From Candidatus Uhrbacteria bacterium (lineage in GTDB: Bacteria > Patescibacteriota > Patescibacteriia > 2-12-FULL-60-25), in contig QEVR01000001.1 of assembly GCA_003576745.1 (NCBI GenBank), positions 1 through 64,000 on the forward strand: a stretch of DNA of 64,000 nt. Direction: 5' to 3'. Numbering within the stretch: the first letter of the stretch is position 1; the number at the start of each line of letters is the position of its first letter. Shown in pieces: positions 11,675 through 14,984 of the stretch. The notes under the pieces are model-generated. The model was not told the DNA's origin, did no database searches, and saw only the letters and a list, made by a program, of their open reading frames with translations. Made by a program: the position numbers and the translations under genes.

Positions 11675-11704
11675 ATTATCGCGGCTAGTGCGCCGCGATG
11701 AATT
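11675..11704. terminator. hairpin between convergent genes
   Basis: ATCGCGGC-TAGTGC-GCCGCGAT just after the transglycosylase stop and overlapping the end of the hydrolase remnant. A-rich and T-rich flanks are short, so termination is plausible but not certain. Confidence 0.5.
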
Positions 11705-11853
11705 GATGGACAAGATTGAACACGTCTTTTCTGAACAAAAGGCCGGTGTGGTCGGTGCCCGCGACGCGGTATTCCGCAAGCGGATGCCGGCAGCGTTCCG
11801 CAGGAACCAGCAGATCGTATTTTCCGGCAATGGAGAGGAAGGGGCGGTTGAAC
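11685..11853 (-). pseudogene. 3' remnant of an alpha/beta-hydrolase-like gene
   Basis: An open frame of about 55 codons ends at 11685 and reads LFNRPFLSIAGKYDLLVPAE, then RCRHPLAEYRVAGTDHTGLL and FRKDVFNLVHQFIAAH. The IAGKYDLLVP and GTDHTGLL parts look like the acid and histidine motifs at the end of alpha/beta hydrolases. The rest of the gene is missing: upstream of about 11853 the DNA turns GC-rich and no frame continues. The gene was therefore probably cut by the insertion or rearrangement that brought in the foreign segment. Confidence 0.5.
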
Positions 11854-12163
11854 AACCCGGGGCGCGATCGCGTCGCGCGGCAGTTGGTACCTGCCGCGCG
11901 CGAGGTCGCCCTCGGTCACCGTGAAGCAACACGATGACAACAAGGCCGATCACCGCGACCACGCCCCGGTCGAGACCCTCCGAGGTGGTCTGGATCGAGG
12001 CGCGGAGCCAGCAAGACCCAGGTTACCTCGCTGTGACGCGGAGCGTCAAGCGCACCGCCGCTGCCCACTTCGTGGGGCCCGCTCGCATCTCCTCCGCGGC
12101 CCGGGTTCCTCGCCGACCCGCACCGCGGGTCGTCTCGGATACCCTTCGACTCCCCAACATCTC
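11854..12163. other. GC-rich segment outside the direct repeat, no gene assigned
   Basis: About 310 bases, one 60-base line reaching roughly 77% G+C by count (12061-12120), unlike nearby host genes at about 60%. All frames give arginine- and proline-rich text. A hydrophobic run (VVAVIGLVVIVLLHG, minus strand near 11920-11962) may be a scrap of a membrane protein. No start, ribosome site or family is convincing. Confidence 0.4.
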
Positions 12164-12203
12164 TAAAACAAATCCGCCCCGGCAGATGCCGGAGCGGATT
12201 TGT
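12164..12203 (-). terminator. terminator, presumably the original one of tRNA-Gly
   Basis: On the minus strand ACAAATCCGC, a GC-rich loop region, GCGGATTTGT, then TTTT. It follows directly after the left copy of the tRNA 3' end, which is where the tRNA terminator would have been before insertion. Confidence 0.75.
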
Positions 12204-12231
12204 TGGAGCGGGTAAGGGGAGTCGAACCCCT
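12204..12231. repeat. left attachment-site-like repeat (tRNA 3' end copy)
   Basis: Identical over 28 bases to 14910-14937: complement of CCA, acceptor stem and T-arm of tRNA-Gly. Sequence beyond it is unrelated to a tRNA. Confidence 0.85.
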
Positions 12232-12489
12232 GCCGAACGCGCCGACGGCGCGGACGCGGCAAAAGCCAGCGAACGAAAATGGCTCAACCGAGCGACGTCG
12301 GAGCGCGAGATGGAGATCGCGCAGAGCGCGGGCTCGCACTCTGCGCGCAGAGTCTGGTCACCAAAGCGGACACCAAGCGGACCCACCGGCTGCACCACAT
12401 GGCGAGGGCGGCGGGGGGCGCTCATGGTTGGTATGGCACTCACCCCTGAACACCTTGCTTCACTGGTCGGCCATCAACGACTGGACGAA

Positions 12490-12891
12490 TCAATCACTCG
12501 GCGTCGGCAGGTCCTGCCGACGGGGCACTCGACCAGATAGCTCGTAGATGCTGACGACTTCCCGTGAGATATAGACTGCGGCCTGTGCCACGCCCCGGCC
12601 ACGGTACCTGCTCGTGAAGGCACAATGAAGTTTCCGCCTCGCGCTCAATTCACTGTCTGCGTTGGGCAACACGTCGACCGAGACCAGTACATGTGGATCC
12701 TCGTCCAGCCGCGCCTTTTCTTCGTTCCACCACCAACCTGAGACGACCGGGAACACGCCTTCACCCGCGAACCATGTCCCGCCGTCCTTGCCGAACTCCT
12801 TCTTGATGTCGCCAAGCGCGCCGATGGCGGCGGCGCGTTGCTCGCTGCCGCTCATCGGAAGGAGCATGCCGAGGCGGATCATCATCTTCAT
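12490..12891 (-). CDS. orphan gene in the element, 133 aa
   Basis: The ATG at 12891 has AGAGG seven bases upstream. The product (MKMMIRLGMLLPMSGSEQRA, then IGALGDIKKEFGKDGGTWFA, GWWWNEEKARLDEDPHVLVS) has a mixed alpha/beta look and no membrane segment or signal. The SDVLPNADSELSARRKLH part reads like a genuine soluble domain. No family recognised. It follows the 12976 gene on the same strand. Confidence 0.55.
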   Translation of the reverse strand: MKMMIRLGMLLPMSGSEQRAAAIGALGDIKKEFGKDGGTWFAGEGVFPVVSGWWWNEEKARLDEDPHVLVSVDVLPNADSELSARRKLHCAFTSRYRGRGVAQAAVYISREVVSIYELSGRVPRRQDLPTPSD

Positions 12892-12915
12892 GTTTGAACC
12901 TCTTCGGAACTGAAA

Positions 12916-12938
12916 CACCGCTGGATAGGCCAGCGGTG
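12916..12938 (-). terminator. hairpin between two element genes
   Basis: CACCGCTGG (12916-12924), five-base loop, CCAGCGGTG (12930-12938), followed on the minus strand by TTTC. Weak T-run; it may attenuate transcription between the two genes. Confidence 0.5.
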
Positions 12939-12975
12939 CAAGGATGAAGAAGCGCCTGCGCGGTTGAGGGCTGTA

Positions 12976-13845
12976 TCAGGCTTCCCTACTACGTGTCTTG
13001 TCTCGGATAACGCGCATCTCTGCAGCAAACGCGCCCGTCTGCTCAAAGACCTCGATTGGAAGGTGATTCGTTCGAAGGGCAGTTTCACGCTCATAGTACA
13101 CGGCGAGCGCCCGGTCCTGGGCCGCTGCGTCCGACCACCGTTGTTTAACGGCGTCTTCGAAGTAGCTGTCAAGCGCTGTCACCGTCGCCGGAGCGCCGTC
13201 GATCAGCGTCTGGAGTTCCTCCGGCAGCTCGTGCTGCCAATCGTCATCCGGAATCTTGTTTCGCACTTGACCTAGATGGCTCCCCGAGGAAAAAGGTGCG
13301 CCTTGACTGGACGCGTCCGGAGAGCCCTCCGCCGTCCCTGCTACGGCTCCCTCGTTGGAGAGGGAACCCGGTGAAGCGTCTGTTGCAGACGCAGCACTTT
13401 GAGCAGAGCCTTCGAAAGGCATCCTGACCTTTTCGTGGGAAGGTGCGTGCGACTCGACGCTGTCGTGGGCGTCATCCTCTCCGAGGATGCGGTCGTAGCG
13501 GGTGCGCACTCCCCGCGCGCGACCCTCGCTCCCGGCTTCAGCCTCGTGCTCAGGTAAGTACGTGTCGGAGGATCTGTCAAGGGACTCGCCGCCAGGGAAT
13601 AGGAGGCCCAGCATCTTTGCCCGAACGTGAGGATCGATATCGATAGGCCGTACGATGTCGCAATACACGCTGTTGAGCAGCAACATGTGCACGTGAATGG
13701 CGTTGACGAGCACCGGAAACCACTCGCTCTTGGGGTCTATTCGCGCGGAGGTTTCCAGGGTCAGGGAACTGCGCCTGTTTTCCAGCACGCCAAGTTCGGC
13801 TCGAATCTCTCGCCAGTGGGGTTCATCCGCATGAGCCCGTGCCAA
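12976..13845 (-). CDS. orphan gene in the element, up to 289 aa
   Basis: Acidic, low-complexity middle (about residues 130-200, rich in Ser, Ala, Gly, Glu) between two ordered parts: an N-terminal part (WREIRAELGVLENRRSSLTL, WFPVLVNAIHVHMLLLNSVY) and a C-terminal part (LPEELQTLIDGAPATVTALD). The last residues include REAxx-type charged helices (FEQTGAFAAEMRVIRDKTRS). The start is uncertain: the first possible codon is TTG at 13845, which overlaps the divergent gene at 13839. GC-rich codon use unlike the chromosome around it. Family unknown. Confidence 0.5.
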   Translation of the reverse strand: MARAHADEPHWREIRAELGVLENRRSSLTLETSARIDPKSEWFPVLVNAIHVHMLLLNSVYCDIVRPIDIDPHVRAKMLGLLFPGGESLDRSSDTYLPEHEAEAGSEGRARGVRTRYDRILGEDDAHDSVESHAPSHEKVRMPFEGSAQSAASATDASPGSLSNEGAVAGTAEGSPDASSQGAPFSSGSHLGQVRNKIPDDDWQHELPEELQTLIDGAPATVTALDSYFEDAVKQRWSDAAAQDRALAVYYERETALRTNHLPIEVFEQTGAFAAEMRVIRDKTRSREA

Positions 13846-14126
13846 CCGCGTCTCCAGTGGACCCGATCGCGTCTCTTGCCGGGGCCAACCCGGCCGCCGA
13901 CGCGGGGTCGAGCGGTGAGGAGGCGTTTCTCCAGGAGCTCGGGCGCGCCGAAGCGAAGTTCGGCGGCGGCTATGTCGGCGTGAACTACTTCATCACGAAG
14001 TGGCAGTGCGAAGCGCTCGATCAATCGCCGGAGGTCCGGCGGCGCATCCTGAACAAGCTCGAACAGGCCGGGCGTGTCGAGGTGTACTTGGCCGAGGACG
14101 GCAGCAAAGCGCTACGGCGGAAGTAA
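13839..14126 (+). CDS. orphan small gene in the element, 95 aa
   Basis: Begins at GTG 13839 or slightly downstream. The product has an Ala/Gly/Ser-rich lead and a compact helical part (GEEAFLQELGRAEAKFGGGY, VNYFITKWQCEALDQSPEVR, NKLEQAGRVEVYLAEDGSKA). It could be a small DNA- or protein-binding module, but nothing identifies it. Divergent from the 12976 gene, with overlapping possible starts. Confidence 0.45.
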   Translation: MPTASPVDPIASLAGANPAADAGSSGEEAFLQELGRAEAKFGGGYVGVNYFITKWQCEALDQSPEVRRRILNKLEQAGRVEVYLAEDGSKALRRK

Positions 14127-14242
14127 AGCGGACGGCGAACGGATCTCCTGTGGGCGGATTTCTACGCCCGACATGAAGCAGATCTGCCGGCTGCACGATC
14201 GGGACGTGGCGCGGCCCCGCACCCCACATCACACTTGAAAAA

Positions 14243-14265
14243 CCCCGCCTCATGATGAGGCGGGG
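14243..14265 (-). terminator. Rho-independent terminator in the element
   Basis: CCCCGCCTCAT and its complement almost back to back; on the minus strand it is followed by TTTTT. No gene that it would terminate is recognisable on its upstream side apart from read-through from tRNA-Gly. Confidence 0.8.
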
Positions 14266-14455
14266 GAGCGGTGCATCGCGAAGCGCGACCAGTTCAAGGC
14301 TCCGCGCTCTGCGAGAACCGTGGAGCAGAGCATCCATCGATCCGACCGCCCGGCAACGCATCCGCGTCCGATGCGTCGTTGGGCAGCCCGATCATCCTCA
14401 AATCGTACCGAGACCGGGCTTGAACGTCAAACGGACGCCGGAAAGGGTGAGCGCC

Positions 14456-14640
14456 ATGCACGAGTTCGACCAGTTTCCTCCTGTCACGCGGAGAACCACA
14501 CTCGTGACCCTTGTCACGGCGGGTGTCACGGGCGTCACGCGACCCGCGGACGCGAATCCCGTCCTGCGTCTCGCCCTCTGGCTGTTGGGTACCGTCGCCG
14601 CGTGGGCAGTCGGACGAGAGTTGGATCGTCTCGTCGATGG
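14456..14640 (+). pseudogene. 5' part of a small gene with a Tat-like start, fused out of frame
   Basis: The ATG at 14456 is preceded by AAAGGGTGA. The product begins MHEFDQFPPVTRRTTLVTLV, then VTAGVTGVTRPADANP and a second hydrophobic segment (LRLALWLLGTVAAWAVGREL). An RR followed by a hydrophobic run resembles a twin-arginine signal. Near 14635 the sequence changes into recombinase code in another frame, so the gene seems to have lost its 3' end by deletion. Confidence 0.4.
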
Positions 14641-14921
14641 GCGTCGCGGTCCACGTGCTCAAGGAGCTTCTCGGCCACTCGAGCATCAAGATGACGCTCC
14701 GCTACATGCATGTGGAGCGCGAGTCCGTGGAATCCACCGTGGCGCTCATCCGGCGGGCCATTCCTGGCCCCGTTGCCGAACATTTTGGTCACCAAATGGC
14801 CACCAAGGCCGAGATCGCGGTTCGAAATCGCTCGTCCGAGCTCCAGCGCGAACCCCTTTTTCCCGCTGAACCAAGCAAAAAGCCGACCTATGCGGTCGGC
14901 CTTCACTCCTGGAGCGGGTAA
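14637..14921 (+). pseudogene. C-terminal fragment of a tyrosine recombinase (integrase)
   Basis: Reads MGVAVHVLKELLGHSSIKMT, LRYMHVERESVESTVALIRR and on to the stop inside the tRNA. LGHSSIKMTLRYMH is the box II end of phage-type integrases, with the second histidine and the nucleophilic tyrosine (RYMH). The arginine and H-x-x-R motifs that should lie upstream are absent, and the frame just before is occupied by another gene fragment, so the enzyme is inactive. Its position beside the tRNA identifies the element's integrase. Confidence 0.8.
14877..14903 (-). terminator. terminator downstream of tRNA-Gly
   Basis: GCCGACC-TATGC-GGTCGGC; on the minus strand the hairpin is followed by TTTTTGC. 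It ends tRNA-Gly transcription after only a few bases and lies inside the integrase remnant. Confidence 0.8.
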
Positions 14922-14937
14922 GGGGAGTCGAACCCCT
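14910..14937. repeat. right attachment-site-like repeat (within tRNA-Gly)
   Basis: Second copy of the 28-bp direct repeat, here part of the complete tRNA. Confidence 0.85.
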
Positions 14938-14984
14938 ATCTCGTCCTTGGCAAGGACGCATAATAGCCGCTATACGATACCCGC
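14910..14984 (-). tRNA. tRNA-Gly (anticodon GCC)
   Basis: 75 bases with encoded CCA. Acceptor GCGGGTA pairs with TACCCGC; anticodon stem CGTCC/GGACG encloses TTGCCAA, anticodon GCC; T-arm has GGGGTTCGACTCCCC. All arms are intact, as expected if the element restored the 3' end on insertion. Confidence 0.97.

Follow-up and report, generated by a model that had tools for sequence, protein, structure and literature searches.

A probable decayed tyrosine-recombinase island in tRNA-Gly(GCC) of Candidatus Uhrbacteria, adjoined by a putative mobile tRNA-tail mini-element

Islands and prophages integrated into tRNA genes by tyrosine recombinases are the described systems closest to the locus analysed here, and the recombinases known to target tRNA genes are usually bound to one tRNA sequence. 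In the window, a stretch of 64,000 nucleotides from a Candidatus Uhrbacteria genome (contig QEVR01000001.1, positions 1 to 64,000), the region 12232-14909 shares with these systems a duplicated tRNA 3' end, a regenerated tRNA and an adjoining recombinase remnant, but differs from them in being very small and decayed, in retaining only the tail of the recombinase and in carrying orphan cargo. Judged from sequence, the best reading of this region is that of a decayed remnant of an integrase-mediated island in tRNA-Gly, which is an ordinary kind of element, and we consider it fairly probable that the locus as a whole represents a decayed tyrosine-recombinase island in tRNA-Gly(GCC) adjoined by a separate, mobile tRNA-tail mini-element (Table 1).

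Table 1. Features of the tRNA-Gly locus, in window coordinates
Feature	Position	Strand	Evidence or remark
Host alpha/beta hydrolase, C-terminal remnant	11685..11855	-	cut at about 11857
Unexplained GC-rich stretch (69%) between tail unit and hydrolase remnant	11857..12035		
Remainder of tail unit, stem-3 hairpin	12036..12088	-	comparison with complete units; boundary approximate, inferred
Conserved three-stem tRNA-tail motif	12089..12155	-	model R1, 80.6 bits, E=6.6e-17
Terminator-like hairpin behind left tRNA 3' copy, part of tail unit	12165..12203	-	
Left 28-bp repeat, a displaced 3' end of the tRNA (no full tRNA present there)	12204..12231	-	
Decayed island body, GC 62.8%	12232..14909		
Orphan ORF, ATG start at 12891	12490..12891	-	GC3 0.74
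Orphan ORF encoding 289 aa; 5' part probably missing; head-to-head with the next ORF	12976..13845	-	
Orphan ORF fragment, probably 5'-truncated	about 13881..14126	+	GC3 0.85; without family match
Small orphan ORF running into recombinase tail	14456..14659	+	phase change in codon-position GC
Tyrosine recombinase C-terminal tail (VAVHVLKELLGHSSIKMTLRYMHVE...), 5' part missing	14640..14872	+	Pfam, PHROGs, NCBIfam; codon-position GC
Terminator-like hairpin with T-run behind tRNA, at the island's inner end	14877..14901	-	sequence
Right 28-bp repeat, on the tRNA side (T-arm, 3' strand of the acceptor stem, CCA)	14910..14937	-	
tRNA-Gly(GCC), intact, regenerated at inner island end	14910..14984	-	ARAGORN; Rfam RF00005 E=4.4e-11

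Repeats, genes and relatives of the island

Exact direct repeats of the tRNA 3' end had been proposed in the initial annotation, and the two copies of the 28-nt sequence TGGAGCGGGTAAGGGGAGTCGAACCCCT, placed 2,706 bp apart, are indeed identical at 28 of 28 positions, the right copy forming the 3' end of the intact tRNA-Gly(GCC) on the minus strand. Identity over 28 bp is far more than chance would yield. The repeat spans T-stem positions that differ among congeners, and its left copy has the same T-stem bases as this host (AGGGG/CCCCT), the congeners having GAGGG, ACGGG and GGGGG; in a class-wide pattern scan, only eight other genomes among the matches listed had the matching 23-nt sequence. 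The island comprises 2,678 bp at 62.8% GC, compared with 56.1% in the remaining window, and no other stretch of this length in the window exceeds 61.0%; the shift in composition is genuine yet moderate. The description of the locus as 2.7 kb of GC-rich DNA is thus borne out for the composition but not for the boundary, given that GC-rich DNA already begins at 11857, outside the left repeat.

The truncated tyrosine recombinase reported at the tRNA side is real but short. Only its final ~77 residues are present, which match phrog_1 (E=1.3e-8) and cover positions 143-170 of the 172 of Pfam PF00589, with a score under the curated cut-off; a phage protein was also matched, but weakly (46% over 41 residues). 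Codon-position GC favours coding for the ORFs at 12490-12891(-), 12976-13845(-), ~13881-14126(+) and 14456-14659(+), and strand and coding phase switch abruptly near 13860 and 14640. Judging from composition, two or three island genes look cut at these points, and a fusion junction between the small orphan ORF and the recombinase tail is probable near 14640. Where three orphan genes had been counted, their orphan status and their coding nature hold, but there are three or four ORFs, some of them cut mid-gene. Neither a structural or packaging nor a relaxase or transfer family was detected in the island with Pfam, PHROGs or NCBIfam, so that by gene content it does not qualify as a prophage or a conjugative element; PADLOC assigned no defence function to the cargo.

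Searches for a donor, which had been suggested as a use of the cargo proteins, named none. At the DNA level the island had no relative in plasmids, phages, 57 relatives or 380 phylum genomes, and its proteins had none in plasmids, IMG/VR, the close relatives within 84,980 GTDB genomes or the 380 phylum genomes. This includes the 289-aa ORF, without a relative in any of these protein sets, and the ORF at 12490-12891, which is without relatives and without a Pfam, PHROGs or NCBIfam family.

The empty sites that the initial annotation had proposed to look for do exist: three congeners (G001-G003) have the same gene neighbourhood around tRNA-Gly and no insertion, though the immediate left flank is replaced in the window. 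In these congeners a lamin-tail-domain gene lies on the 5' side of the tRNA, accompanied in two of them by LexA within the fetched stretch, and a transglycosylase and/or an alpha/beta hydrolase lies on the other side. A full-length relative at the same tRNA was also sought, but the island proved to have no intact relative among the genomes searched; what does occur there, in a genome of the same family and another genus (G005), is a different, AT-rich insert of 3.3 kb without a recombinase. Since that genome carries a different insert, the same tRNA-Gly has been targeted more than once, and the class-wide pattern scan indicates that within the class this site is seldom occupied by an insert. 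The G005 insert (contig C1, L048 4071-7415) repeats the tRNA-Gly(GCC) 3' end together with its terminator and encodes a DUF3761 lipoprotein-like protein as well as an orphan of 555 aa. Among the other tRNA-Gly genes that have a 3' copy close by, most of the att-only matches are other tRNA-Gly isoacceptors, and a comparable insert occurs only in G005; regions of G016 matching 14786-14984 have nothing but the tRNA and a similar terminator in common with the window. In that same-family Patescibacterium, tRNA-Gly is adjoined by the gene of a cysteine-rich protein of 1121 aa with DCDG repeats and of myxobacterial appearance (contig C2, L065 8535-11900).

Because no intact relative was found, the integration of the island is read from its scars. 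A tyrosine recombinase would have inserted the island into the 3' end of tRNA-Gly(GCC), and recombination of the tRNA 3' end with a matching site on the element would have restored an intact tRNA at the near end and placed the 28-bp copy at the far end. Later deletions, suggested by the changes of reading frame, would have taken away the greater part of the recombinase and brought truncated genes together; with so little of its recombinase left, the island would no longer be self-mobile. The proposal of a decayed integrative element is accordingly upheld in its repeat, its regenerated tRNA, its recombinase remnant and the uninserted congeners, and falls short in the donor, which was not found, and in the recombinase, of which a tail of ~77 residues is left.

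The left outer flank and the origin of the island

Outside the left copy, the sequence resembles DNA found behind other tRNAs in other Patescibacteria. It contains, at about 12036-12203, a gene-less unit of ~170 bp formed by a terminator and a three-stem fold, here called a tail unit, and this stretch (12036-12203) is a structured tRNA-tail unit and not donor cargo. Compared with complete units, the copy in the window retains the terminator and the stems and lacks the closing tRNA 3' copy near 12036; it is unusually GC-rich (75%), and its closing stem fits the T-arm of this tRNA-Gly. The score of its motif is a score on training data, since the window motif is one of the four copies used to build the covariance model R1. 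No tail unit was present at this tRNA-Gly in the three congeners. The terminator behind the left copy was considered as the host's own, an interpretation set aside because a pair of sites in G492 shows that such terminators move inside the unit, and the motif has a second, weak match at 12216-12277(+), which probably reflects no more than the T-arm and a GC-rich hairpin.

The GC-rich DNA beyond the left repeat (11857-12203, 69%) ends at a second junction, where a host hydrolase is cut: its last ~56 residues remain in the window, and it is complete (235 aa) in the congener G001. For the 180 bp at 11857-12035 no relative was found in the 380 phylum genomes. The second GC step at 11.85 kb is partly explained by the Patescibacteria-specific tail unit, not by the island, and the second junction at 11857 is not accounted for by plain tRNA integration. 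Because 11857-12035 and the truncation of the hydrolase have no explanation, two other origins of the locus keep some share of the probability.

One of them is that 11857-14909 arrived whole from a GC-richer Patescibacterium that had both island and tail unit at its tRNA-Gly, with a crossover within the conserved tRNA at one end and illegitimate joining within the hydrolase gene at the other. Such an import would account for the raised GC on both sides of the left repeat, for the hydrolase cut at 11857 and for a GC-rich tail unit that congeners lack at this tRNA; we consider it unlikely, if credible, given that the left copy has exactly the T-stem bases of the host, which only eight other genomes among the matches listed share, and that no similar block was found in the 380 phylum genomes. 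It is rather improbable, too, that reads of another organism were joined to the contig, with the 28-bp tRNA sequence and position 11857 as the joints. The two sharp junctions with truncated genes at both, and a cargo without relatives, are what an assembly chimera would produce, but this origin becomes less likely because the outer left DNA is specific to Patescibacteria, as the tail unit shows, and because the assembly has only 4 contigs with 0.07% contamination; moreover, the left copy matches the tRNA variant of the host itself. We thus favour the decayed tyrosine-recombinase island, for which the likely order of events would be that a tail unit came to lie behind tRNA-Gly, that the island then inserted between the tRNA and the unit, and that DNA was subsequently lost up to the hydrolase.

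tRNA-tail units in other Patescibacteria

The model R1, whose four source copies include that of the window, gave 55 matches in 29 of 240 class genomes, with a maximum of six in one genome; in the 380-genome phylum sample, another 6 genomes, belonging to other classes, also had matches. Among 51 examined copies, 36 follow a complete tRNA on the same strand at a distance of 17-66 nt, the tRNAs representing 12 isotypes, and 32 of these 36 units are closed by a copy of the 3' end of their own tRNA (at least 14 of 16 nt). The common order is tRNA, terminator hairpin, fold and direct copy of the tRNA 3' end, with a median net size of 176 bp (range 111-250). These counts are lower bounds for the class, since R1 missed a longer, divergent subtype behind the tRNA-Gly(TCC) of G313 (contig C26, L130 1240-1631).

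Several other arrangements were observed at tRNA genes. In G381, tRNA-Gly(CCC) is followed by a different gene-less insert of ~172 bp with a 23-bp copy of the tRNA 3' end (L074 1764-2010), which R1 does not recognise and which may represent a second family of such inserts. In G005, a tail unit with no closing copy nearby separates tRNA-Ser from a type III restriction-modification island that also encodes a BRO-N protein (contig C2, L076 9659-19601 / L108). In G509, contigs C1 and C2 end in the same 127 bases, which is probably an unclosed contig joint at tRNA-Glu.

In an alignment of 27 complete units (A3), the 24 predicted pairs are formed in 93.6% of cells and compensatory changes on both sides occur at 19 of the 24. 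Cells with double changes numbered 158, compared with 51 after shuffling, and none of 500 shuffles reached the observed value; as the unit sequences are related, the shuffles do not give a formal probability, and a control that preserves relatedness, in which the partner was slid by one column, lowered pairing to about 50%. The closing stem is formed by the 5' end of the unit, which is the reverse complement of the T-arm, paired with the copied tRNA 3' end. At six variable positions, this 5' strand matches its own tRNA at 5.44 on average, compared with 4.27 (sd 0.11) for shuffled tRNAs and a maximum of 4.69 in 2,000 shuffles. G-U pairs make up 14 of ~597 paired cells in the unit stems and 4.7% in tRNA stems, values too close to separate RNA from single-stranded DNA. 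Rfam covariance models did not match the tail unit.

Filled and empty sites were found in closely related contexts. A direct repeat of 74 bp flanks the unit behind tRNA-Gly(GCC) in G313, and in the sister species G516 the site is uninterrupted. G492 has one tRNA-Gln with a unit and a second without, the downstream flanks being 98% identical; the filled site shows a 22-bp repeat, and the insert brings its own terminator, the older one being displaced downstream. In addition, one core (93 of 95 positions) lies behind tRNA-Gly(GCC) in G313 and behind tRNA-Gly(TCC) in G516, and the tRNA-Gly(TCC) of G313 carries another unit subtype than that of G516. The filled and empty pairs, together with the swaps of cores and subtypes, thus show precise gain, loss or exchange of units at the sequence level.

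The tail unit carries no integrase of its own, for which 111-250 bp leaves no room. Nine regions around units contain mainly ordinary chromosomal genes, with no consistent partner, no linked recombinase gene and no autonomous transposon sharing the unit ends nearby, and the tail unit matched nothing in plasmids or phages, nor did tail-unit patterns in IMG/VR. The likeliest mechanism is that the fold, perhaps as single-stranded DNA, would be recognised by a recombinase acting in trans, which would insert the unit at the T-loop and end it in a copy of the tRNA 3' end.

A covarying, RNA-like fold that is always on the tRNA strand and amid mainly core genes could also be expected if the units were immobile, that is, conserved untranslated RNAs of tRNA operons lost in many lineages. 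We hold this to be distinctly improbable, considering that the empty sites are precise, one of them within a single genome, that in sister species one tRNA can carry differing subtypes and one core can stand behind different tRNAs, and that the fold lies past a terminator. It is highly improbable that the island, which lies at the same tRNA as the unit, was moved by the tail-unit system as cargo between tRNA and unit and not by its own tyrosine recombinase, because, even if the G005 unit precedes a type III restriction-modification island at tRNA-Ser, complete units fit tRNA, terminator, fold and copy gene-free within 111-250 bp, the island repeat begins 8 nt further 5' than unit repeats, and the island holds a recombinase remnant.

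The tail unit has the appearance of a new class of mini-element, mobile and fitted to tRNAs. We lean towards the view that Patescibacteria harbour undescribed mobile, gene-less mini-elements with a covarying fold, whose closing stem and 3' end are fitted to the tRNA they occupy, which are found at many isotypes, and for which one mobilising system would serve nearly any tRNA, the window holding a truncated copy beside an old island.

Comparison with known mobile elements

Mobile DNA is poorly documented in this phylum, to whose record the island adds a further decayed insertion, in itself of modest interest. For the tail units, the occurrence at 12 or more isotypes and a stem that tracks its own tRNA suggest that the target is chosen by structure or by pairing. 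The natural filled and empty sites offer material for testing this, and the units, if they are what we propose, would provide a marker of gene flow for streamlined, mostly uncultured genomes. No description of such units was found in the literature searched, which left aside subscription journals and preprints. They fit none of the known kinds considered, and they may still be read as MITE-like or have been described elsewhere.

Tail units resemble MITEs in being small and gene-less, with direct repeats and with both filled and empty sites, but their site is always a tRNA 3' end, their repeat consists of 17-31 or more nt of that tRNA, and in place of simple terminal inverted repeats they have a covarying fold of three stems, the closing one being fitted to the target. 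By analogy only, they recall the attC sites and cassettes of integrons in their fold of variable sequence and conserved pairing and in their structured insertion site, whereas they contain no cassette gene and their target is the tRNA T-arm; read from alignment A3 alone, the consensus ends NGGGANTYGAA and GRANTCCCN do not show the GTTRRRY/RYYYAAC boxes. A further analogy is with the mobile group I introns of tRNA genes, which also insert into a tRNA gene and pair a stem to the target; unlike them, tail units match no Rfam intron, leave the tRNA intact and duplicate the target sequence.
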